From an uncultured Pseudomonadota bacterium (GTDB lineage Bacteria; Myxococcota_A; Bradymonadia; Bradymonadales; Bradymonadaceae): a DNA stretch of 38,079 bases. The notes under the pieces were generated by a model. That model made no database searches, was not told the origin of the DNA, and saw only the letters and a list, made by a program, of their open reading frames with translations. Below, piece by piece: positions 20,297 through 37,920 of the stretch. The stretch is taken from contig CATLTV010000029.1 in assembly GCA_950059285.1 (NCBI GenBank), positions 1-38,079 of the forward strand, read 5' to 3'. The first letter of the stretch is position 1. Every line of letters starts with the position of its first letter. The position numbers and the translations under genes were made by a program.

Positions 20297-23218
20297 ATGG
20301 CCACAGATATTCCCAGCACATCTGTTAATACACAGGCAGCAAAACCGACCAAGAAGGTCAGAACATTTAAACCCACCAAGGACGGGCTCAAGTTTCCCCG
20401 TGTGTATACCAAGCCAGGCGTACACCCATTTGACGAGGTGACATGGGAGCTACGTGATGCGTCAATTACCAATGAGCGCGGCGAGGCAGTGTTTGAGCAG
20501 AACGGAGTGGAGTTCCCCGAGTTCTGGTCACAGATGTCTACCAACGTGGTGGTCTCGAAATATTTCCGTGGCAAGATCGGCTCCCCTGAGCGTGAGCACA
20601 GCGTCAAGCAGTTGATTGGCCGCGTGGTGGATACAATCACAGAGTGGGGCAAGAAGGATGGTGTCTTTGCGGATGATGACGCAGCCGAGACCTTCAGAGC
20701 AGAGCTTGCATATTTGATTTTGCATCAGAAGATGGCCTTCAACAGCCCCGTGTGGTTCAACGTGGGTGTGGAGGAGCGTCCACAGGCGTCAGCATGTTTC
20801 ATCAACTCGGTGCAAGACACCATGGGTGACATCATGGATCTGGCAAAGACCGAATGCATGTTGTTCAAATGGGGAAGTGGCGCGGGCTCCAACCTGTCCA
20901 CCTTGAGGAGCTCCAAGGAGTATCTCTCGGGTGGTGGTCAGGCCAGCGGTCCTGTCAGCTTTATGCGTGGTTATGATGCGTTTGCAGGCGCGATCAAATC
21001 AGGCGGCAAGACACGTCGTGCAGCGAAGATGGTGATTCTTGATGCAGAGCACCCTGATATCCTTGAGTTCGTGGAGAGCAAGTCCAACGAGGAGCGCAAG
21101 GCATGGGCTTTGATCGAGCAGGGTTATGATGGTGGCTTCAACGTGCCTGGTGGTGCGTATGATTCTGTAGCCTTCCAGAACGCCAACCACTCCGTACGAG
21201 CATCTGATGAATTTATGCAAGCAGTGGTGGACGATGCGGACTGGACCACAAAGGCTGTGGTTGATGGCGCTCCTATTGAGACCTTGAAGGCACGTGATGT
21301 GATGAACTCCATTGCCGAGGCGGCATGGGTGTGTGGTGATCCTGGTATGCAGTATGACACCACCATCAACGACTGGCACACATGCAAGTCGACCGATCGT
21401 ATTTACGCAAGTAACCCATGTTCCGAATACATCTTCCTGAATGACACGGCATGTAACCTTGCGAGCTTGAACTTGATGAAGTACCGCAAGGACGATGGTT
21501 CCTTTGACGTGGAGAAGTTTAGCCACGCAGCAAGGCTCACCATCACGGCGCAGGAAATTATTGTTCCTAACGCAAGTTACCCCACACCTGCGATTGGAAA
21601 GAACTCACATGATTTCCGTCCACTAGGTCTTGGATTTACAAACCTTGGTGCGCTGCTCATGGTGCGAGGCATTCCTTATGACTCCGCACAGGGTCGTGCC
21701 ATCGCAGGTGCGATCACCTCATTGATGTGTGGTGAGGCGTATGCGCAGTCCGCAAAGATCGCCAAGACCTCAGGTCCATTCCCTGGATACCCCGAGAATG
21801 AAGAGCCAATGCTTGGTGTGATCAAGATGCACCGCGATAGCGTGCAAGGCATCGCATCAGAGTACAACGACATTCAGAACGATCCTATTTTCAAGGCGGC
21901 TCAGAAGTCCTGGGACAATGCATACGCACTGGGCAAGGAGCATGGATACCGCAACGCACAGGTCACAGTGCTCGCACCTACAGGTACAATCAGCTTCCTT
22001 ATGGACTGTGACACCACAGGTATCGAGCCTGATATCGCGTTGATCAAGTACAAGAAACTTGTGGGTGGTGGTTACTTCAAGATTATCAACCGCTCTGTGC
22101 CAGAGGCTCTAACCGTACTTGGTTATAATGAGCAGGAGCGCAAGGACATCGAGCAGTACCTGATGGATCAGGACACCATTGAGGGTGCGCCTCATCTGAA
22201 AGAAGAGCACCTCTCCGTCTTTGATTGTGCGTTTGTTGCTGCCAACGGCACGCGTTCCATCGAGCCGATGGGTCACGTCAGGATGATGGCCGCATGTCAG
22301 CCATTCCTCTCTGGTGCAATTAGCAAGACAGTGAATATGCCAAACACCGCAACTGCCGAGGAAATCGCAGATGTGTATGTGGATGCATGGAAGCTTGGTT
22401 TGAAAGCGATCGCCATCTACCGCGATGGTTGTAAGCGTACGCAGCCTCTGTCCACCTCCATGGACAAGGGTGAGGAGAAGCAGGAAGCTGTGGCATCCAC
22501 AGAGACCGTTGAGAGTGAACTTCCCATGGCAGCAGTGGCTGAGAAGGTCATGTCCGAGCAGCCCGTGCTCAAGCGTCGTCAGCGTCTTCCCGATGAGCGT
22601 CCCTCGATTACACACAAGTTCTCCATCGCAGGTCACGAGGGTTACATCACCGTGGGCATGTACAACAATGGACAGCCTGGCGAGATCTTCATCGTGATGA
22701 GCAAGGAAGGAAGCGTGGTCAGTGGTTTGATGGATTCCTTCGCGACCTCCATCTCTCTCTGCTTGCAGTATGGTGTGCCTCTGGAAGTGCTCGTGGACAA
22801 GTTTAGCTTCACACGCTTTGAGCCATCTGGCTTCACCAACAACCCACGTATTCGTATGGCACACTCCATTACGGATTATCTCTTCCGCTGGCTTGCGGAC
22901 AAGTTCATGGGCGACTCTCAAAAGAGCCGTTACTTTTCAAACCTTGAGTTTGGAAGCGACTCCGAAGAAGAAACTGTGAGCCCTGCTCAGGCTGTCGCTG
23001 CTGTCAAAGGCCAGGAGCCAGAAACTGCTGCCGAGGCGACTGCTTCTGCATTCGAGGAAGCTCCTGCTGGAAGTGTGGTGTATGAGGCATCCAAGAACTC
23101 TGCGCCCATCGCCATGCAGTCAGATTCACCCCCCTGTCATGTATGTGGTGGTATCACGGTTCGCGCTGGAGCTTGTTACTCCTGTCCAAACTGTGGCGCT
23201 ACAACAGGTTGCGGTTAA
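20297..23218 (+). CDS. nrdJ: Adenosylcobalamin-dependent (class II) ribonucleotide reductase
   Basis: The 973-residue enzyme makes deoxyribonucleotides with a thiyl radical generated from adenosylcobalamin, so it needs no oxygen or iron partner. MAFNSPVWFNVG and the KWGSGAGSNLS segment are hallmarks of NrdJ. The active site NPCSE gives N373, C375 (radical Cys) and E377. Redox Cys are likely C167 (ACFINSV) and C386 (TACNLASLNL). There is no N-terminal ATP-cone. After the barrel come a basic linker (about 715-755), a TSCPD-like domain (HKFSIAGHEGYITVGMYNNG to about 880), an acidic linker and a C-terminal Cys-rich tail (CHVCGG, CYSCPNCG, GCG). That tail is likely a zinc-binding or thiol-regenerating element. 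GGAAG 9 bases before the ATG supports the start. It is monocistronic, closed by palindrome 7, with an NrdR-like box upstream. Confidence 0.95.
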   Translation: MATDIPSTSVNTQAAKPTKKVRTFKPTKDGLKFPRVYTKPGVHPFDEVTWELRDASITNERGEAVFEQNGVEFPEFWSQMSTNVVVSKYFRGKIGSPEREHSVKQLIGRVVDTITEWGKKDGVFADDDAAETFRAELAYLILHQKMAFNSPVWFNVGVEERPQASACFINSVQDTMGDIMDLAKTECMLFKWGSGAGSNLSTLRSSKEYLSGGGQASGPVSFMRGYDAFAGAIKSGGKTRRAAKMVILDAEHPDILEFVESKSNEERKAWALIEQGYDGGFNVPGGAYDSVAFQNANHSVRASDEFMQAVVDDADWTTKAVVDGAPIETLKARDVMNSIAEAAWVCGDPGMQYDTTINDWHTCKSTDRIYASNPCSEYIFLNDTACNLASLNLMKYRKDDGSFDVEKFSHAARLTITAQEIIVPNASYPTPAIGKNSHDFRPLGLGFTNLGALLMVRGIPYDSAQGRAIAGAITSLMCGEAYAQSAKIAKTSGPFPGYPENEEPMLGVIKMHRDSVQGIASEYNDIQNDPIFKAAQKSWDNAYALGKEHGYRNAQVTVLAPTGTISFLMDCDTTGIEPDIALIKYKKLVGGGYFKIINRSVPEALTVLGYNEQERKDIEQYLMDQDTIEGAPHLKEEHLSVFDCAFVAANGTRSIEPMGHVRMMAACQPFLSGAISKTVNMPNTATAEEIADVYVDAWKLGLKAIAIYRDGCKRTQPLSTSMDKGEEKQEAVASTETVESELPMAAVAEKVMSEQPVLKRRQRLPDERPSITHKFSIAGHEGYITVGMYNNGQPGEIFIVMSKEGSVVSGLMDSFATSISLCLQYGVPLEVLVDKFSFTRFEPSGFTNNPRIRMAHSITDYLFRWLADKFMGDSQKSRYFSNLEFGSDSEEETVSPAQAVAAVKGQEPETAAEATASAFEEAPAGSVVYEASKNSAPIAMQSDSPPCHVCGGITVRAGACYSCPNCGATTGCG

Positions 23219-28262: not shown

Positions 28263-29324
28263 ATGGCAAAGGGAAAGCACTGCGTAGGGCTTGATATTGG
28301 TTCAAGCGCAGTCAAGCTTTGTGTGCTGAAGGGGACCAAGCGGGGATTACAACTGCAAGCATTTGATTATGCGCCGTTGCCCCCCGAAACGATCGTTGAT
28401 GGTGCGCTACTGAACTCATCAGTAGTGGCTGACGCGATCACAGAGCTGTTGAGGAGGCACAAGATTCGTGCCAAGGAAGCAGCGATGAGCGTCTCTGGCA
28501 ACACGGTGATTATACGAAAGATTACGCTCCCAATGATGACCCAAGAGGAACTGCGTGAGTCGATCCAGTGGGAGGCTGAGCAGTATATTCCATTTGACAT
28601 CAAGGAGGTCTACATTGGCCACGAGGTCATCGCCCCGCGTAAAGAGCAAGGGCAGATGGATGTGGTACTGGTAGCCGCCAAGAAGGAGATGATTGATGAC
28701 TATCAGAACGTCTGTCTTGACGCTGGCTTGAAGCCACGCGTGATGGATGTGGACGCGTTCGCATTGCAGAACGCGTATGAGGTCAACTACTCATTCCTTC
28801 AGGGAGAGACTGTAGTCTTGTTGGATATTGGTAACTCGGTGGTGACCATGAACGTGGTGACCGATGGTGTGACCATGTTCACGCGAGATCTATCACTGGG
28901 TGGAGCAGACATTACTGAAGAGATTCAGAAGCAGCTGAACATCACGTATCAGGAAGCAGAGAAGTACAAGACGGGCGGCACGCCTGGTGTGCAGACCGAT
29001 GAGGTCTTGCCCCAGGAGGTTGAGAAGATCATTGGAGAGAAGGCCGAAGGCATCGCCAATGAGATTCAGAGGTCGTTGGACTTTTATTCTGCGACGGCGG
29101 CGGATTCGCGCATTGACAAGATCATGGTCTCGGGAGGCACCTCTGCGATTCCATCCTTGGTGCGAACGATCTCACGCATCAGCGGTATTCCCGCGCAGGA
29201 GATCAACCCCTTCCAGAACATCAGTTATGATGAGCGCCTGTTTACCAAGGCGAGGATACAAAAGCTTGCGCCTATCGCGACAACCGCAGTAGGGCTTGCT
29301 CTCAGGAGGACAAACGAGACATGA
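28263..29324 (+). CDS. pilM: Type IV pilus assembly ATPase-fold protein PilM
   Basis: This 353-residue cytoplasmic actin-like protein has nucleotide-binding motifs GLDIGSSAVKL (N-terminus) and VLLDIGNSVVTM (about residue 188), and the C-terminal phosphate loop MVSGGTSAIP. PilM binds the N-terminal peptide of PilN and links the pilus motor to the alignment complex in the envelope. The length is usual. Its stop overlaps the pilN start (ATGA, 29321-29324). First gene of the pilMNOPQ cluster. An extra segment, TGGTPGVQTDEVLPQ, lies before the last third. Confidence 0.95.
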   Translation: MAKGKHCVGLDIGSSAVKLCVLKGTKRGLQLQAFDYAPLPPETIVDGALLNSSVVADAITELLRRHKIRAKEAAMSVSGNTVIIRKITLPMMTQEELRESIQWEAEQYIPFDIKEVYIGHEVIAPRKEQGQMDVVLVAAKKEMIDDYQNVCLDAGLKPRVMDVDAFALQNAYEVNYSFLQGETVVLLDIGNSVVTMNVVTDGVTMFTRDLSLGGADITEEIQKQLNITYQEAEKYKTGGTPGVQTDEVLPQEVEKIIGEKAEGIANEIQRSLDFYSATAADSRIDKIMVSGGTSAIPSLVRTISRISGIPAQEINPFQNISYDERLFTKARIQKLAPIATTAVGLALRRTNET

Positions 29325-30028
29325 TTCGGATTAACCTCTTGCCAGTTAGCGATGGGGACCGTCTCGCACAGGGACGCCTACATCTCATTATTTTTGCCGG
29401 CGTGCTTTTGATGGTGGCGGCGCTCCTTGGGCTGATCTTTATGGCGACCAACTCCGAGCTTGAAGAGTTGACGAAGCGTCGTGATGAGGGCAGGGCTGAG
29501 GTTCAGCGTATGGATCGTGATGCCAAGGAGATCAAGGCATTAAACGACGAGGCTTCGCAGCTTGAGAAACAGCTCGCCATTTTGGCCGAACTCAAGGGTG
29601 GGCGCACAGGTCCTGTGCGTATGCTTGATGAGCTCAAGTCGATGTTGAACCCCCCTCGCAACGAGGAGGATCGCTTTGCACAGCTCCAGAAGAACTGGAA
29701 CGTGGAGTGGGATCCCAAGCGTTTGTGGCTGGCCTCCTTTGCGGAGGAAGGTGCCAAGAAGGGTGGTAAGCCAGAATTTTCCCTGGAAGGTTCAGCGATC
29801 AACCACGATGATGTCGCCGAGTTTTTACAGCGTTTAAATACAGCAGAACACTTCTATGACATCAAGCTTGATGAGGTCGTGTCTTCACCAGTGAAGATGG
29901 GCCAGAAGGAAGTGCCAAGGGTGAACTTCAAGCTCAAAGGCAAGCTCTCTTATCTTGGAAAGAGTAAAGAGCAAGCTCAAGCCCCCGTTGTTGCTCCTGG
30001 TAACCCTCGTCAGAGGCCAAAGAAGTAA
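29321..30028 (+). CDS. pilN: Type IV pilus alignment protein PilN
   Basis: This 235-residue inner-membrane protein opens with MIRINLLP, the conserved peptide that docks into PilM. One TM helix (about 21-44), a coiled coil (about 47-90) and a C-terminal ferredoxin-like periplasmic domain follow (about 115-215). It starts inside the end of pilM. The last 20 residues are Pro/Lys/Gln-rich. PilN pairs with PilO. Confidence 0.93.
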   Translation: MIRINLLPVSDGDRLAQGRLHLIIFAGVLLMVAALLGLIFMATNSELEELTKRRDEGRAEVQRMDRDAKEIKALNDEASQLEKQLAILAELKGGRTGPVRMLDELKSMLNPPRNEEDRFAQLQKNWNVEWDPKRLWLASFAEEGAKKGGKPEFSLEGSAINHDDVAEFLQRLNTAEHFYDIKLDEVVSSPVKMGQKEVPRVNFKLKGKLSYLGKSKEQAQAPVVAPGNPRQRPKK

Positions 30029-30063
30029 ACGCCACACAGCTTATGCTAGAAGAGAGATAAGGA

Positions 30064-30681
30064 ATGAACGATCTTATCAGTCGCTTTAACACCTACCCAC
30101 TGGGTCAGAAAGTCTTGATGCTGCTTTTGCTCATCATCTTGATGGTGATTGGATTTTACTTCCTCCACTATCAACCCTATGAGGAGCAGGTCGCGAGCCT
30201 GAACCAGGAGCTCAAGACCATTCAGGCCAAACGTGAGGAGTTTGAGGTCCTCAAGAATGAGAGGGCCGAGGTGCTCTCACGTTTGGAGAAGCTCAAGCGC
30301 GAGCTTTTGGTGGCGCGTGAGCAGCTGCCTGCGAGCGCCGAGGTGCCAAGTTTGCTGCAACGCATTCACAACCAGGCAAAGACAGCTGGCCTTGAGATTA
30401 CACGCTTCAAGCGTGTGGATGACGTGTCGAAGAACTATTACACAGAGATCCCCGTGGAGATGAAGCTCTCAGGCAGCTTTGATGAGCTGGCGAACTTCTT
30501 CTACTACCTGGGTCGAATGACACGTATTGTGAACGTGCGTGATATCTCCCTGAAGCAACAGGGGGGTGGTAGCAAGCTTGACTCCGAGGATGCAGGCGAG
30601 CTTGAGGTTACCGCGAGGGCAACAACCTTCATGTACAACGCGCCAGAGCAGTCTCAGTTGCTGGGTACAAATAAGAAGTAG
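30064..30681 (+). CDS. pilO: Type IV pilus alignment protein PilO
   Basis: This 205-residue protein has one N-terminal TM helix (about 15-37), a coiled coil (about 40-95), then a C-terminal PilO domain with LLQRIHNQAKTAGLEITRFK and GSFDELANFFYYLGRMTRIVNV. It forms heterodimers with PilN in the periplasm. AGAGATAAGGA is just ahead of the ATG. 35 bases separate it from pilN. Confidence 0.93.
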   Translation: MNDLISRFNTYPLGQKVLMLLLLIILMVIGFYFLHYQPYEEQVASLNQELKTIQAKREEFEVLKNERAEVLSRLEKLKRELLVAREQLPASAEVPSLLQRIHNQAKTAGLEITRFKRVDDVSKNYYTEIPVEMKLSGSFDELANFFYYLGRMTRIVNVRDISLKQQGGGSKLDSEDAGELEVTARATTFMYNAPEQSQLLGTNKK

Positions 30682-30697
30682 TGATGTGTGCATCGGA

Positions 30698-30751
30698 GGG
30701 AGGGCGTGATGGCGGTGGCGTAATGCGACCGGCACATCACACGACCCTCCC
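30698..30751 (+). promoter_or_regulatory. Intercistronic hairpin between pilO and pilP
   Basis: A nested stem: GGGAGGG/CCCTCCC (30698-30704, 30745-30751), GTGATG/CATCAC (30706-30711, 30735-30740) and a possible inner CGGT/ACCG. No T-run follows, so it is not a normal terminator. It may be an mRNA processing or stability element, or a regulator of pilP. Confidence 0.45.
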
Positions 30752-30800
30752 GAATACAAGAGACACATGATTTAACAGACCTTTAGAGGTTAATAGAGCC

Positions 30801-31574
30801 ATGAAGATTGATGACACAAATGTACAACCCAGACGATGGAGCCGCCAACTTGGTCAGGTGATATCTCTGGTGTGTATGGGCGTGGTGGTCGGCTCTGGTT
30901 GTGAGATGCTAGGTCTGAGTGATCCGGCTCAGCAAAACACACCCAGTCCAAATCAGGCCAAGAAGACGCCTCCTAAAACTAACACCCCACCTCCTGTGGT
31001 CGCAGATGCGGCGGCAGAAGAGGAAGAGAGCTACGAGCGTCCCGAGTATCCTGATAACGCAGGGCGTAACCCCTTCCGCGTGGATGTGGAGACCGTGGTT
31101 CCATCTGTGGTTGTGGCCGTCAAGGAGGAGCGTCCTGTCGAGCCTCTTGAGCAGTTTGGTCTCTCGCAGCTTTCGCTTATTGGCGTGATCAGCGAGACCG
31201 CTGTACCCAAGGCAATGTTTGTGGACCCCGAGGGCTTTGGCCATGTGGTCAAGGAAGGCGATCGCATTGGGCGCCAGGGCGGAATCATCACGGATATTCG
31301 CGACAATGAAGTGGATATTCAGGAGTCTGCTGTGGAGAACTCCCAGGTCCCATCCACGATCAGAACACTTCGACTTAGCGACACTGAGATCCGTTCATCG
31401 GGTGATGATGAGGAGCTTAGCGAAGCAGAGCGTCAAGCTCTTGAGAGGTTGTTAAAGAGCGAGGAGGGGCGTCAGCAACTCCGCGACAACCTCAGAGAAC
31501 AGATGAATCGAGAGTCGCAACGAGGAGCTTCTCAGGGAGCTTCCTCGGGTGGGATTGCACCACCTGTCCCTTAA
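30801..31574 (+). CDS. pilP: Type IV pilus lipoprotein PilP
   Basis: This 257-residue lipoprotein has a hydrophobic segment and lipobox GSGC (Cys about residue 34). A Pro/Thr spacer and the PilP beta domain follow: NPFRVD, then QLSLIGVISE, KAMFVDPEGFGHVVKEGDRIG and GGIITDIRDNEVDI. PilP links PilN/PilO to the PilQ secretin. The C-terminus carries an additional helical tail (about 205-250) with EAERQALERLLK and REQMNRESQ, longer than in typical PilP. AGAGG precedes the start. Confidence 0.92.
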   Translation: MKIDDTNVQPRRWSRQLGQVISLVCMGVVVGSGCEMLGLSDPAQQNTPSPNQAKKTPPKTNTPPPVVADAAAEEEESYERPEYPDNAGRNPFRVDVETVVPSVVVAVKEERPVEPLEQFGLSQLSLIGVISETAVPKAMFVDPEGFGHVVKEGDRIGRQGGIITDIRDNEVDIQESAVENSQVPSTIRTLRLSDTEIRSSGDDEELSEAERQALERLLKSEEGRQQLRDNLREQMNRESQRGASQGASSGGIAPPVP

Positions 31575-31598
31575 GGACAAGAATTGCATAAAAAAATT

Positions 31599-31645
31599 GG
31601 CTCTCTCCTCACCCGAGGGTTATAACGAGGGAGAGAGTCTTTTTT
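31599..31645 (+). terminator. Intrinsic terminator-like hairpin between pilP and pilQ
   Basis: GGCTCTCTCC..TC pairs with the GAGGGAGAGAGTC strand (one G-U, one bulge) and is followed by six T's. An A7 run just before the stem makes it bidirectional-looking. It either stops most transcripts before pilQ or forces pilQ onto its own promoter in the 160 bases that follow. Confidence 0.75.
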
Positions 31646-31813
31646 GAATGAACACTATACGTTTTTCGCGTGAGGGTAAGGTTGCCACGGCAGCACTGGT
31701 CTCACACAAGACAGAGGTCACCGTTTATTAGCGCGTACATAAGACTATCTCTTGAAAGGCAGGCATGTTGCCCGCCAGGAGTGTCGCGTTAATAACATCG
31801 AGGAGTCGTGCAT

Positions 31814-34800
31814 ATGTCTTCTATAAGATGGAAACTGGCAGCAGCCACAATGAGCATCGCGCTTGCCGCGAGTGCGCCCGCCTGGGCGCAACAGCTTGAT
31901 GATGGCCCTGCCCAGGTTACAATAAACAAGGTCAACTCCTTCGATATTTCCGAAGGTGAGGCGGGCACCCTGATCCGAATCAAAGGATCCAGTGTGCCCA
32001 CGTTCTCGGTGTTTAAGCTCGCCGATCCGCCACGCCTCTTTGTTGACCTCTCTCACAGTCAGCTTGCTGGAGGTGAGGGTGAGGTTCGCGCTGTAGGTAA
32101 TGGCGTGATCTCACAGGTTGCTCTCATTGGTGTAGAGGACTCCTCTCAAGCGATGACTCGCGTCATCATTGGCTTTGAGCAGGCGGCCCACTATGATGTG
32201 CGCGCGGATGGTAACGATGTCCTTGTGTTCATTGATGGTGAGTCACGCAGAGCTCCCGATGTCAGTGAGAAAGTGTCTGCAGCTGCAAGCCAGGCGCTTG
32301 AGCAGGAACGTCAGCGCTACCAAAAGGAGCTGACCTCCACACGTGAGCGTCTTGAGACTACTGAGCAGGAACTTGAGCGTTTGCGCGCTCAGGCAAAGAC
32401 CGCTCAGGGCAAGGAACGCAAGGCGCTTGAAACCAAGATTCAGGCGAAAAACCGCGAAGTTGAGCAGGCCAAACTTGAGCGTCGTGATGCTCAGGATAAG
32501 CTTGCTCGTGCAGAGCGTGAGCGTGAAGGTGCACTGAAGAGAGCTCGTCAGGCAGAGAAGCAAGCTTCTCAGTCCGAGCAGCAACGTCAGCTTGCGCTCA
32601 AGCAACTTGAGCAGACACGTGAGCGTCAACAGACACTCGCAAAGCAGACCGAGCAGCTCAAACAGCGCGAGGCCAAGGCATCTCAGGAAGCTGTGAAGCT
32701 CCAGCAAAAAGCCACCGCGCTTGAGCAAGAGCTTAGTAACTTGCGTAAGAAGGTCGCCACATCTGGCTCTTCTTCCAAGGTCGCTTCACAAGAGATTGCA
32801 CGTCTTGAGTCGCTTCAAAAGAGCAACGCCAAGGCACTCGAGTCTGCCAAGGACGCAAGCGCCAAGGCTCAGCGTGAATACGCTCAGAGCCAACAGCAAC
32901 TTGTCGCCGTACAGGACAAGCTCGCCAGCACACAGGCTCACGCAAGCAAATTGCAGAAGAGCCTCGATGCACAGACTCAAGAGATGTCTGTGATGCAGGC
33001 CGAGCTTGCTGCGCTCAAAAAAGAAAAAGCTCAGCTTGACTCCAAGAGACAGACTCTGGAAGCCCGCAACGCGGACCTCTCCAAGAATAATACAGAAAGT
33101 AAGGAACTGGCTCAGCGTCTTGCTCGCGCACAACGCGAACTTGAGCAGGCCAACCTTCGTCAGCAAAAGCTCATCGCTCAGATGGAAGAGCAGTCCAAAG
33201 CACAGTCTGCAAAGCCTGCTGCCAAAGCTGTTCCCGTCGATGTGACCGCGCCCAATGTCGTCAAGGATATTCGCCTTGAGACCACCAACGGCCGCTCTCG
33301 CATTGTCGTTGAGCTTGACCGTCCAGGTAGCTTTGAAACCTTGCCTGGCGATCAGAGTCGCGCTGTGATGATTCTGAACAACACCGAGCTCCCCGAGACT
33401 CTTGAGCGTACGCTTTCTGCCAACGCTCAGGGTGGCGCTGTGCGCTTCGTCTCAAGCTTCGTGGACCAGGGTCAGGTACGCATGGAAGCTGAGCTTGGTG
33501 GTGAAGTCGCCGAGACAGTCCGCGCTGATGGCAACACCCTTGTGTGGGAGTTTGCTTCTGCGATTGCGGAAAACACTGCACAGGCACAACTTCCCGCTGA
33601 AGCCGCTCCACAGGCTCCAGAAGCTGGTGATAGCTTCACATCTGCTCCTCCTCTGATTGTGACTGACCCCACAAAGGTCTCTCGCGTCCCAGGTATGAGC
33701 CGTAAACGCTTGACCATCGACCTTCGTAACGCTGACATTCAGAACGTGCTTCGCCTCATCTCTCGTGAAGGTGGCGTGAACATCATCGCGGGTAGCGATG
33801 TGGCAGGTACTGTGACAATGCGTCTTCGCGGTGTGCCTCTGGAAGAAGCCTTCTTGACCGTGCTTCAGTCTCAGGGACTTGGCTTTGAAAAGCGTGGTAA
33901 CGTGATTCGCGTGACCACACAAAAAGCTTTGCTTGATGAGCAGCGCGCCAGAGCAGAAGCTCGCCAGGCAATGCTTGATAGCCAGCCTCTGGAAGTGTTC
34001 CTGTTGCCTATCAACTACGCAGAAGCGGGTGACCTGACGGGTCAGATTCAGGGCATCCTGAGTCCTCGCGGTAGCGTCACAGTGGATGAGCGTACAAACA
34101 CACTGATCATCAAGGATGTGGCAGAGAACCTTGAGCCGATTCGCGTCCTGATTGAGAGTCTTGATACACAGGTGCCTCAGGTTCTGATTGAAGCTCGCAT
34201 TGTGGAGACCAACGACACCTTCCAGCGTCAGATTGGTATTCAGTGGGGCGGTAGCTTCGGCATGAGCCAGCAAAACGGTAACCCCACAGGTCTTATCTTC
34301 CCAAGCACACTTGGTGTGGCTGGTGGTGCGACTGATGGTCAGACACCTAACGCAGGTGTTGGTAACGCTAACCCCAACTATGCGGTTAACCTTCCTGCTC
34401 CAGTGGGTACGGGTTCCGGTGGTGGTATTGGCCTGACCATGGGTAGTGTAGGCGGCAACGTCAACTTGAACCTCCGCTTGAGTGCTCTTGAAGAAGCTGG
34501 CCATGCACGCATCGTGTCTGCGCCCAAGATTCTGACTCTCGACAACAACGAAGCATCCATCTCACAGGGTACAAGTATTCCTATCAGCGTCGTGGGTGCG
34601 GCGGGTGTCCAGACCGTGTTCGTCCAGGCAGTGCTTGAATTGGTGGTGACACCTCACGTAACTCCAGATGGAAACATCCAGCTGCACATCCAGGCGAGCA
34701 AGAACGAACCAGACTTCCAGAACACGGGCGCTCGTGGTGACCCCACAATCATCCGTCGTAACGCCGAGACTGAGCTCTTGATCAAAGACGGTGATACCAC

Positions 34801-35092
34801 CGTGATCGGCGGAATCTACACACGCAACGCAGGTACAAGCACATCGGCTGTCCCCTTCTTGCACAAGATTCCAATCCTCGGCTTCTTCTTCCGCTCAAAC
34901 TCCGAGAGCGAGCGTCGCAGCGAGCTTCTGATCTTCATCACACCTCGTATTGTGAACCGAGCAGAGTCCCTGGGTGTCATCTCCGCAGGAGCTGTCCAGG
35001 CAGGAAGTGGAAGTAGCGCATCAGGCGGCGGAGCTTCAGGCGGAGCTGGCGCAGCAGGTGGTGGCGGATCTGTGAACGTGTCCCCCTACTAG
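31814..35092 (+). CDS. pilQ: Type IV pilus secretin PilQ with coiled-coil insertion
   Basis: This 1092-residue outer-membrane secretin is the pore for the pilus. Domains in order: signal peptide ending AWA (about residue 25), AMIN 1 (35-140), a very long coiled coil (about 148-470, Gln/Glu/Lys/Arg/Ala-rich), AMIN 2 (478-585), STN-like domain (630-700), N1 domain (725-795), secretin core (795-1050) with HARIVSAPKILT and the VPFLHKIPILG motif, and a Ser/Gly-rich tail. PilQ is usually about 700-900 residues, so the coiled coil is the unusual part. AMIN domains bind peptidoglycan. The start ATG 31814 has GAGGAG 8 bases upstream; the GTG at 31808 is too close to it. Confidence 0.95.
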   Translation: MSSIRWKLAAATMSIALAASAPAWAQQLDDGPAQVTINKVNSFDISEGEAGTLIRIKGSSVPTFSVFKLADPPRLFVDLSHSQLAGGEGEVRAVGNGVISQVALIGVEDSSQAMTRVIIGFEQAAHYDVRADGNDVLVFIDGESRRAPDVSEKVSAAASQALEQERQRYQKELTSTRERLETTEQELERLRAQAKTAQGKERKALETKIQAKNREVEQAKLERRDAQDKLARAEREREGALKRARQAEKQASQSEQQRQLALKQLEQTRERQQTLAKQTEQLKQREAKASQEAVKLQQKATALEQELSNLRKKVATSGSSSKVASQEIARLESLQKSNAKALESAKDASAKAQREYAQSQQQLVAVQDKLASTQAHASKLQKSLDAQTQEMSVMQAELAALKKEKAQLDSKRQTLEARNADLSKNNTESKELAQRLARAQRELEQANLRQQKLIAQMEEQSKAQSAKPAAKAVPVDVTAPNVVKDIRLETTNGRSRIVVELDRPGSFETLPGDQSRAVMILNNTELPETLERTLSANAQGGAVRFVSSFVDQGQVRMEAELGGEVAETVRADGNTLVWEFASAIAENTAQAQLPAEAAPQAPEAGDSFTSAPPLIVTDPTKVSRVPGMSRKRLTIDLRNADIQNVLRLISREGGVNIIAGSDVAGTVTMRLRGVPLEEAFLTVLQSQGLGFEKRGNVIRVTTQKALLDEQRARAEARQAMLDSQPLEVFLLPINYAEAGDLTGQIQGILSPRGSVTVDERTNTLIIKDVAENLEPIRVLIESLDTQVPQVLIEARIVETNDTFQRQIGIQWGGSFGMSQQNGNPTGLIFPSTLGVAGGATDGQTPNAGVGNANPNYAVNLPAPVGTGSGGGIGLTMGSVGGNVNLNLRLSALEEAGHARIVSAPKILTLDNNEASISQGTSIPISVVGAAGVQTVFVQAVLELVVTPHVTPDGNIQLHIQASKNEPDFQNTGARGDPTIIRRNAETELLIKDGDTTVIGGIYTRNAGTSTSAVPFLHKIPILGFFFRSNSESERRSELLIFITPRIVNRAESLGVISAGAVQAGSGSSASGGGASGGAGAAGGGGSVNVSPY

Positions 35093-36073: not shown

Positions 36074-37789
36074 CTAGTTTTTCTTTTGGCGTCGGTACAT
36101 CAGACCTGCTGCTGCGATAAGTAACCATGAGGCATCACCTGAGCGTCCTGGTGTGTGGTTACAACCACCATCTATACCTGATGATGTTGTGAGGAGCTGG
36201 TCGAAGTTCTCGCCATTTTCATCCTCGCCAGTTGGGTCGGATGGTGTTGTGCCCTGATCTTGTGGTGTGGATGGAGAGCTTCCCATATCAGAGGAGGAGG
36301 GTTGTCCTCCCTGATCCTGACCGCCGCCAGTGCCTCCTCCCATATCGCTATCTGCCGAGTCGGCTACAAGTTGTACGCTGACCCAGTTTGTCTCGCCTTC
36401 GGTGAGCATCTTGGTCTGGGCGTTGGTGATATAACCTGCTGCGCTGGCTGTCACGGTGATGGTGCCTGCATCCACAGGTACTTCATTAAAGATAAATAAT
36501 CCCTGCTCATTGCTAAGTGTGCTTTGCCCATCATCAAGTGATACGTCTGCGCCCACAATGACTGTGCCTGTGATGTCGTTTGGATCGGTGTAGACGTAGC
36601 CTTGCACAGTGACAGAAGCATCGGCGACCTCGAGGCTTCGCAGCTCAAGGTTTGGTTGATAGTGCTCAAGAATCCAGATGTAGTCCTTGCCCGATGCTCC
36701 CCAAGATGCCGTGCCCCATTGGCACATGCCACGTACAAGGCAACGATCGCTGCCTGCGAGGTTGGGGTTATCTTCATGTCCTGCGCACGTGTTGTGGCCA
36801 CACCATGAGCCTGCGCAGGCGTTTACCGTGGGGTCATCGGGGACGAGGGCGCTTGTTGTTCCATATTCGGGGAGCGTGCCGTGTTTGCCACAGGAGGCAG
36901 CATACTCAAGCTTGTCGAGCGTCTGTGGTTCGCCCTTTTTGACGAGGATCTGATTGGCTACTGCTTCAGCTGCGGCTGTGGTGATCCCAAGGCGCTCATC
37001 GCTATAGCGTTGGTTGCAGGCCGTGTCGTCAATATGAAACCAGGTGTAATTGTTGGGGGGCAGAGGTGCATCCACGGTGCGTCGGTTGCTCTCATCATAG
37101 GTGAGCATGAACCACAGGCCATAGCTCTTGGCAGCGATGCCAAATGCCTTGTACGTTTCGGATGATCCCTCAATGCTTTGAAAGACACCGATCTCTGGTG
37201 GTAGCACGCCCTTGACGTAATCATCGATGTCCATCTCTTCAATGGCGACCACGGGGTTGTTGCTACAGCCATTTTCGGGGCTCTGCCGACGGCCCACGCG
37301 AATCCTGCGTGGAATGGGATCGGTGACAGTCAACGCCAACGGGTTGTTTTGTCCAGGGAGTTGAATACTGTGTGGAGCATCGTCAGGAAGCGCGCCACTG
37401 GAGGTTGGAATCCCCATGGGAGTGGTGCTTGCTGGGAGTCCCTGATCTGCAAACCAACTGGTATAGATGTGGGCCTGAGCTGCTTTGTATTGCGGTACAA
37501 CCTGACGCACCAGTGAGACCTTGCTTGGTTTCTGTTCAAGATTTGCTTCAAAGTCGATCTGATATTCACCCTGCGGCAAGTCAAATGACCATTTACCTTC
37601 ATGATCGGTGTGGGTTGTGTGGTTTGTACCTGCAACAGTCACAAGCGCGCCTTCCACAGGATATCCTGTCAGCGCATCTGTCAGTGAGCCTTCCAGTGGT
37701 TCGGCCAGGGCAGCCGAGCTTGAGCACAAGATCATGCATCCTGCTAGAAGTGGGAGGCCATGTGTCATCAGGGTGTGTGTTGTCAGCAT
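36074..37789 (-). CDS. Exported SpoIID/LytB-domain protein with MYXO-CTERM-like tail
   Basis: The protein has about 571 residues from the ATG at 37789, chosen because GGAG (37800-37803, on the minus strand) lies 10 bases upstream; ATG 37825 is an in-frame alternative. A signal peptide ends near SAALA. A carboxypeptidase-regulatory-like beta domain is at about 30-90 (LEGSLTDALTGYPVEGALV). The SpoIID/LytB domain is at about 180-375 (MDIDDYVKGVLPPEIG, AFGIAAKSYGLWF, RGMCQWGTASWG). A second regulatory-like beta domain is at about 390-470 and a Ser/Gly/Asp/Gln linker at 480-540. The C-terminus reads GGCNHTPG, then hydrophobic SWLLIAAAGLMY and RRQKK, the layout of MYXO-CTERM sorting signals. SpoIID proteins cleave or remodel peptidoglycan denuded glycans. 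Its place in a non-sporulating cell and the target are unknown. Confidence 0.85.
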   Translation of the reverse strand: MLTTHTLMTHGLPLLAGCMILCSSSAALAEPLEGSLTDALTGYPVEGALVTVAGTNHTTHTDHEGKWSFDLPQGEYQIDFEANLEQKPSKVSLVRQVVPQYKAAQAHIYTSWFADQGLPASTTPMGIPTSSGALPDDAPHSIQLPGQNNPLALTVTDPIPRRIRVGRRQSPENGCSNNPVVAIEEMDIDDYVKGVLPPEIGVFQSIEGSSETYKAFGIAAKSYGLWFMLTYDESNRRTVDAPLPPNNYTWFHIDDTACNQRYSDERLGITTAAAEAVANQILVKKGEPQTLDKLEYAASCGKHGTLPEYGTTSALVPDDPTVNACAGSWCGHNTCAGHEDNPNLAGSDRCLVRGMCQWGTASWGASGKDYIWILEHYQPNLELRSLEVADASVTVQGYVYTDPNDITGTVIVGADVSLDDGQSTLSNEQGLFIFNEVPVDAGTITVTASAAGYITNAQTKMLTEGETNWVSVQLVADSADSDMGGGTGGGQDQGGQPSSSDMGSSPSTPQDQGTTPSDPTGEDENGENFDQLLTTSSGIDGGCNHTPGRSGDASWLLIAAAGLMYRRQKKN

Positions 37790-37920
37790 AAGAACCGCGC
37801 TCCAATCATCATTTCTGGCCATCATATTATGGCGTCATATCGTGCATTTAAACCATAGTTCTCGCGTATATTACGCGACTTGATGGGTCACTGCAAAGGT
37901 TGTGCTGTGATTTTATCAGT

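Follow-up and report, generated by a model that had tools for sequence, protein, structure and literature searches.

A long, length-variable coiled coil between the AMIN domains of the pilus secretin PilQ in Myxococcota, with a predicted hairpin fold

Only a handful of species, namely Myxococcus, Pseudomonas, Neisseria and Thermus, underlie the current models of the type IVa pilus machine. The pilQ gene described here raises a question: what is the stretch of about 320 residues that separates two AMIN domains of this secretin, how widely is it shared, and what could it do for the machine? PilQ is multimeric, and its AMIN domains are known from the literature to bind peptidoglycan and to position the pilus machine. 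In M. xanthus, according to excerpts of PMC10653833, the PilQ AMIN domains bind the polar wall and are required for polar recruitment. The Bradymonadales, the order to which the present DNA belongs, include predators whose pili are seen at contact with prey, and pilT expression is raised while they prey (excerpts of PMC7460792).

The DNA analysed, hereafter the window, is the 38,079-nucleotide contig CATLTV010000029.1 of a 6.65 Mb draft genome (G000), and it holds the pilus cluster pilM-pilN-pilO-pilP-pilQ at 28263-35092 (Table 1). The last protein of the cluster matches the PilQ family TIGR02515 with 419.8 bits (cut-off 284.35). It also has the domain order AMIN, N0/STN, N1 and secretin, as seen with Pfam and in an alignment with M. 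xanthus PilQ. Judged by Pfam, NCBIfam and the operon together, it is beyond doubt a true PilQ, the type IVa pilus secretin. The ATG at 31814 is likelier to be its start than the GTG at 31808, because it has the better ribosome-binding site, a GAGGAG 8 nt upstream; it is also the start given in a sequence-only reading of this DNA. At 1092 aa the protein exceeds the usual 700-900 aa of an insertion-free PilQ, as that reading had pointed out. This size is not defining, and complete PilQs of the phylum that lack the coil described below span 546-1219 aa, one broken frame having been dropped. Pfam finds AMIN in two stretches of the protein, the best being residues 487-568. Among relatives with a name, the closest are Lujinxingia vulgaris TMQ2 (locus L044, 53% identity in the best segment), a Lujinxingiaceae MAG and a Bradymonadaceae MAG, all of them Bradymonadales.

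Table 1. Pilus genes of the window and features of its PilQ; residues are counted from the GTG at 31808.
Feature	Position in window	Strand	Basis or remark
pilM	28263..29324	+	Pfam PilM_2 4.9e-76; TIGR01175
pilN	29321..30028	+	Pfam PilN 8.4e-07
pilO	30064..30681	+	Pfam PilO 2.3e-30
pilP	30801..31574	+	Pfam PilP 4.8e-15
pilQ	31814..35092	+	1092 codons from ATG; 1094 from GTG at 31808
Signal peptide	31814..31888	+	predicted by eye, cut after AWA
First AMIN domain, AMIN1 (residues ~40-146)	31925..32245	+	alignment with M. xanthus PilQ 15-141; iterated HMM; beta domain in model
Coil helix 1 (residues 154-198)	32267..32401	+	AlphaFold2 model
Coil helix 2, predicted hairpin arm one (residues 202-319)	32411..32764	+	register fit, AlphaFold2, structural matches
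Gly-Ser turn (residues 320-323)	32765..32776	+	AlphaFold2; structural matches centred here
Coil helix 3, predicted hairpin arm two (residues 324-462)	32777..33193	+	register fit, AlphaFold2, structural matches; second-half pLDDT 61-69
Second AMIN domain, AMIN2 (residues 487-589)	33266..33574	+	Pfam AMIN; iterated HMM; AmiC match Z 13.5
N0/STN domain (residues 638-704)	33719..33919	+	Pfam STN 657-704
N1/Secretin_N domain (residues 731-791)	33998..34180	+	Pfam
Secretin core (residues 893-1049)	34484..34954	+	Pfam Secretin E 2.8e-48

The linker between AMIN1 and AMIN2 has the composition and the periodicity of a coiled coil. Residues 151-469, 319 in all, contain no proline, and A/Q/E/K/R make up 64% of the linker. 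Heptads were judged by Fourier periodicity and by a custom register fit: the LIVMFYW periodicity peaks at exactly 3.50 residues, a peak that none of 300 shuffles reaches, and the register is fitted with 3 shifts over the 319 residues at a score of 77.8, the maximum of 30 shuffles being 45.6. The second half of the coil taken alone is likewise significant when alanine is left out (0/300 shuffles) and not significant when alanine counts as apolar (98/300 shuffles as good). GC3 in the coil is 0.548, against 0.55 in the AMIN domains, and tandem repeats in the DNA of the gene are negligible; we thus regard the coil as ordinary coding sequence. At the protein level its internal repeats are at the null (0.27 vs 0.28 in a shuffle that keeps the heptads). 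Membership in an SMC-like family was considered and rejected, with NCBIfam scores of 31.8 bits for ASRP (cut-off 300) and 22.7 bits for SMC_prok_B (cut-off 567), so that these matches appear to be a likeness of coiled coils only.

The coil is far more widely distributed than the window sequence alone could reveal. The survey took in 57 class genomes and a sample of 140 from the phylum, 115 of the latter giving a match at 1e-60; those with no usable PilQ match, 5 of the 57 relatives (among them G007, with the N-terminal half only) and 25 of the 140, stand outside the counts. PilQ regions were retrieved from genomes with a usable match, and the counts cover 142 Myxococcota genomes with an assessable PilQ. 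A coil was called where at least 150 proline-free residues with more than 45% A/Q/E/K/R lie upstream of the secretin. It is present in 73 of the 142 genomes and absent from 61, with 8 not judged, and it extends across 15 coded families. Besides the window's own genome (1/1), it is found throughout the same family (19/19) and the same order (5/5), in 19 of 27 genomes from the rest of the class (5 without, 3 not judged) and in 29 of 90 from the rest of the phylum. The latter were listed with 57 without and 4 not judged; one of the 57, G167, was moved to the genomes not judged because its frame has an in-frame stop. The gene concerned (L114, family f39) is a 2,215-codon pilQ frame with a single in-frame TAA, either a sequencing error or a truncated gene. 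Since the longest proline-free stretch in complete coil-less PilQs is 125 residues, the two classes do not overlap and the trait is all-or-none. The search for the insertion in related families, which the sequence-only reading had proposed, thus found it in about half of the genomes. An assembly artefact or a repeat local to this assembly, which the same reading had named as a refuting outcome, is ruled out by the 73 genomes and by the lack of a notable DNA tandem array in the gene.

Heptad periodicity is found in the linkers of relatives too. In the class, 28 rows were dropped because they were duplicates or ran off the end of a contig or locus, leaving 40 complete, distinct PilQs; 35 have linkers longer than 200 residues, and for 33 of them no more than 2 of 100 shuffles reach the observed 3.3-3.8 residue periodicity. 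The two that fail, with 27/100 and 14/100 shuffles as good, belong to family f3, some of whose coils are Ala-rich. All 23 coil linkers examined in the phylum set have at most 1 of 50 shuffles as periodic. In the 57 complete coil PilQs, a count that itself requires two AMIN domains, these flank the coil on both sides, with 210-2,039 residues between the outermost of them (median 573) and a longest ORF of 2,830 codons. Apart from these, three PilQs of 546-634 codons (L150 and L151 of family f27, L156 of f13) have no AMIN domain by the iterated AMIN profile.

What fold could such a linker take? AlphaFold2 was run on AMIN1-coil-AMIN2 as a monomer, giving two models that differ in lead sequence and share the same 11 sequences in their alignments. 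With the window PilQ as lead, the coil is predicted as the three helices of Table 1 (pLDDT mostly 66-93); with L. vulgaris PilQ as lead, as helices of 51, 154 and 165 residues (pLDDT mostly 83-94). The pTM of both models is 0.36-0.38. Both predict that a short helix leads into a long antiparallel hairpin, whose arms have 118/139 residues in the window protein (about 18-21 nm, taking 0.15 nm per residue) and 154/165 residues in L. vulgaris (about 23-25 nm). The long coiled coil that the sequence-only reading had placed between the AMIN domains is thereby borne out by heptads, absence of proline and predicted helices over about 151-469, and a disordered region, its other refuting outcome, is excluded to the extent that prediction allows. 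VIA-align matches to known hairpin coils centre on the turns, covering 223-364 around the turn 293-296 in the window model and 225-448 around the turn 333-336 in the L. vulgaris model. Scores of Z 11-14 are common among long helices, and the matches therefore speak for a hairpin shape and not for kinship. As a hairpin of about 18-25 nm would project from the AMIN domains, AMIN1 and AMIN2 are probably not kept 47 nm apart by one rod. The heptad register continues unbroken across the predicted turn, and the coil may instead be a parallel one between subunits. Against a strict hairpin, by eye L014 has lost about 100 residues from the first half of its coil only. Over 11 sequences the two arms have near-equal mean lengths (147 and 149 residues) with no significant covariation (r 0.19, p 0.58), and when helix propensity was scanned for a break shared by the 57 coils, the long ones showed no one break at the centre. 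A Gly is kept in 10 of 11 family PilQs about 55 residues past AMIN1, within a motif resembling (A/S)G-x-ER (window residues 199-201 in alignment A1); it is here that the coil is first predicted to break.

The predicted hairpin bears on two readings of the coil. First, the coil could pair PilQ monomers, as parallel or swapped hairpins, and gather them at the septal and polar wall for ring formation. The heptads are continuous through the coil, AlphaFold monomer models do not distinguish pairing within a subunit from pairing between subunits, and in M. xanthus the polar wall is believed to capture PilQ monomers before they multimerise (excerpts of PMC10653833); nevertheless, the hairpin is predicted within a single chain, and such a coil is lacking from other PilQs, 60 complete ones of this phylum among them, so that we consider this role unlikely. 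Second, the coil may be a long leash that gives a free AMIN1 a large reach for wall sites, in which case flexibility alone would matter. An AMIN1 kept N-terminal in the complete coil PilQs counted and a length free to vary would suit it, but a disordered, Pro/Gly-rich linker would more likely be expected than a proline-free heptad coil, and the predicted hairpin returns AMIN1 towards AMIN2; a leash thus seems to us quite improbable.

The coil is old in much of the phylum, and its length changes fast. A quick maximum-likelihood tree was built from 80 secretin domains (63 with coil, 15 without, 2 unlabelled), the last 50 genomes not being included; on it the coil label needs 4 changes, of which well supported branches require at least 3, whereas shuffled labels need 13.9. 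The coil is therefore clustered on the tree and of early origin in much of the phylum; several lineages, such as f4/g23 (linker 30) and f7 (linkers 44-66), lack it or have lost it. Within genus g21 of family f5 the linkers have 211, 565, 602, 712 and 725 residues. Over 55 pairs of 11 PilQs, identity is 28% in the coil versus 58-60% in the AMIN domains, the heptads persisting as the sequence drifts.

Giants of the trait are found in family f11 (L104-L113), with PilQ ORFs of 2,100-2,830 codons and 1,340-2,035 residues of coil between the AMIN domains. Internal repeats in 7 of the 11 complete coils of this family are strongest at a lag of 206-239 residues, which is close to the length of a single window hairpin (118+139), and the giant coils may be strings of hairpins. 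Towards the end of several f11 coils, at about 91-94% of their length (e.g. in L107), there is a motif ending in DDYLK, possibly a docking or capping site.

Such turnover invites the view that the coil is a functionless helical linker, growing and shrinking near-neutrally by slippage. Indeed, internal repeats stand clearly above the heptad-keeping null in 29 of the 57 complete coils, the coil sequence is poorly conserved and lengths change inside genera; the hypervariable length could thus reflect a weak constraint. A neutral linker, however, should gain Pro, Gly and Ser, whereas heptads and the absence of proline are kept over 15 families, and the window coil itself is without repeats above the null. 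We judge this explanation to be very improbable.

A further possibility is an axial spanner or ruler: by crossing the periplasm, the coil would set the spacing of the wall, the outer membrane and the inner-membrane parts, much as the sequence-only reading had suggested. The predicted arms of the window and L. vulgaris proteins would fit the periplasm of about 30 nm of other Gram-negative bacteria (about 70 nm in Thermus; excerpts of PMC13039148). Also, over 34 coil genomes, PilO tends to be longer where the coil is longer (rho 0.65), in statistics that are uncorrected for kinship and use crudely picked start codons. Without the giant family f11, however, rho falls to 0.33 (p 0.11, n=24) for PilO and is 0.19 (n=17) for PilN and -0.42 (p 0.019, n=31) for PilP; the length covariation of the coil with PilN, PilO and PilP is weak and driven by f11. 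The sequence-only reading had also suggested that the coil may bind PilP/PilO-like partners; with f11 set aside, longer coils do not go with longer PilN or PilP, and only weakly with longer PilO. With 1,300-2,000 residues in one family and 211-725 in one genus, there is no common ruler, and the lengths of up to about 2,000 residues, together with the weak covariation, speak against a fixed periplasmic ruler. A spanning role therefore looks improbable, and the hairpin in both models speaks against it as well. Of the sequence-only reading, the coil between AMIN domains, shared by relatives, stands; the fixed spacing of wall and outer membrane is not supported in the form proposed.

We tentatively prefer a different role, though with less than even confidence: the coil may be a wall-rooted arm that braces the pilus machine on the peptidoglycan or links neighbouring machines. 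Each of the 12-15 ring subunits would carry such an arm as an added periplasmic element, inserted after the wall-binding AMIN1 and before the N0-adjacent AMIN2 and made, according to the models, of a short helix leading into a long antiparallel hairpin. Because its root would be at peptidoglycan level and its length is free to range from about 200 to about 2,000 residues, most of the arm would lie sideways, in the plane of the envelope, rather than across the periplasm. Arranged in a ring, such arms would distribute the force of pilus retraction over a wide patch of wall and would stop the machine from tilting or sinking; at the pole, the arms could interlock with those of neighbouring machines. 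A bolder and more doubtful generalisation is that much of the phylum Myxococcota carries a length-tunable coiled-coil skirt on its secretin, wall-rooted, sideways and of up to about 2,000 residues per subunit, which would turn the machines into wall-braced or mutually linked polar arrays, the coil length being set by the pulling force or machine density of the lineage. If, in a large part of the phylum, each of the 12-15 subunits does bear as many as 2,000 additional residues, tomograms of these machines must look different. The coil, which can be deleted, shortened, lengthened or swapped, also offers a handle on how the wall holds the machine under load.

How does the coil-bearing PilQ compare with known systems? 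M. xanthus PilQ (PDB 3jc8, 901 aa) belongs to the same secretin family and has the same pilMNOP partners, and its AMIN1 and its last AMIN domain are homologous to those of the window protein. It differs in that it has a third AMIN domain between the two (excerpts of PMC10653833; a weak middle match in our alignment) and no coil, so that the 320-residue coil occupies the place of the middle AMIN domain. A precedent for a coiled coil that ties an outer-membrane protein to the wall is SlpA of Deinococcus (excerpts of PMC9388160). SlpA and like connectors share with the window PilQ an outer-membrane protein, a long coiled coil and a wall-binding domain on the N-terminal side; however, SlpA has SLH domains, a homotrimeric coil and an outer-membrane domain with one chain per barrel, whereas in the window PilQ the coil is predicted to be a hairpin, is flanked by AMIN domains and is part of a secretin ring. 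No SLH domain was matched by Pfam in the window PilQ at E 0.1, and we regard the likeness as analogy, without homology. The predicted hairpin also superposes on the antiparallel coiled-coil hairpins of EnvC, RipA, PcsB, SMC arms and chemoreceptors, for example on RipA-SteB (Z 13.0, 1.8 A over 168 residues, 14% identity) and on SMC 5xg2 (Z 14.5, 1.4 A over 164 residues, 18% identity); common to them is the arrangement of helices, with no sequence kinship and no shared neighbouring domains. TsaP is a peptidoglycan-binding protein of the PilQ complex as well, but a separate protein. Searches of a library of open-licence PubMed Central papers, which mostly does not extend to subscription papers and preprints, yielded no paper on a coiled coil inside PilQ.

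Two further genes of the window are worth recording. On the forward strand, positions 20297-23218 encode a class II (B12-dependent) ribonucleotide reductase of 973 aa. On the reverse strand, positions 36074-37825 encode a protein of 583 aa in which a SpoIID domain is accompanied by two carboxypeptidase-regulatory stretches; its C-terminus has a Gly-Cys, a hydrophobic stretch and an Arg-Arg tail, an arrangement that we take to resemble a MYXO-CTERM sorting tag.
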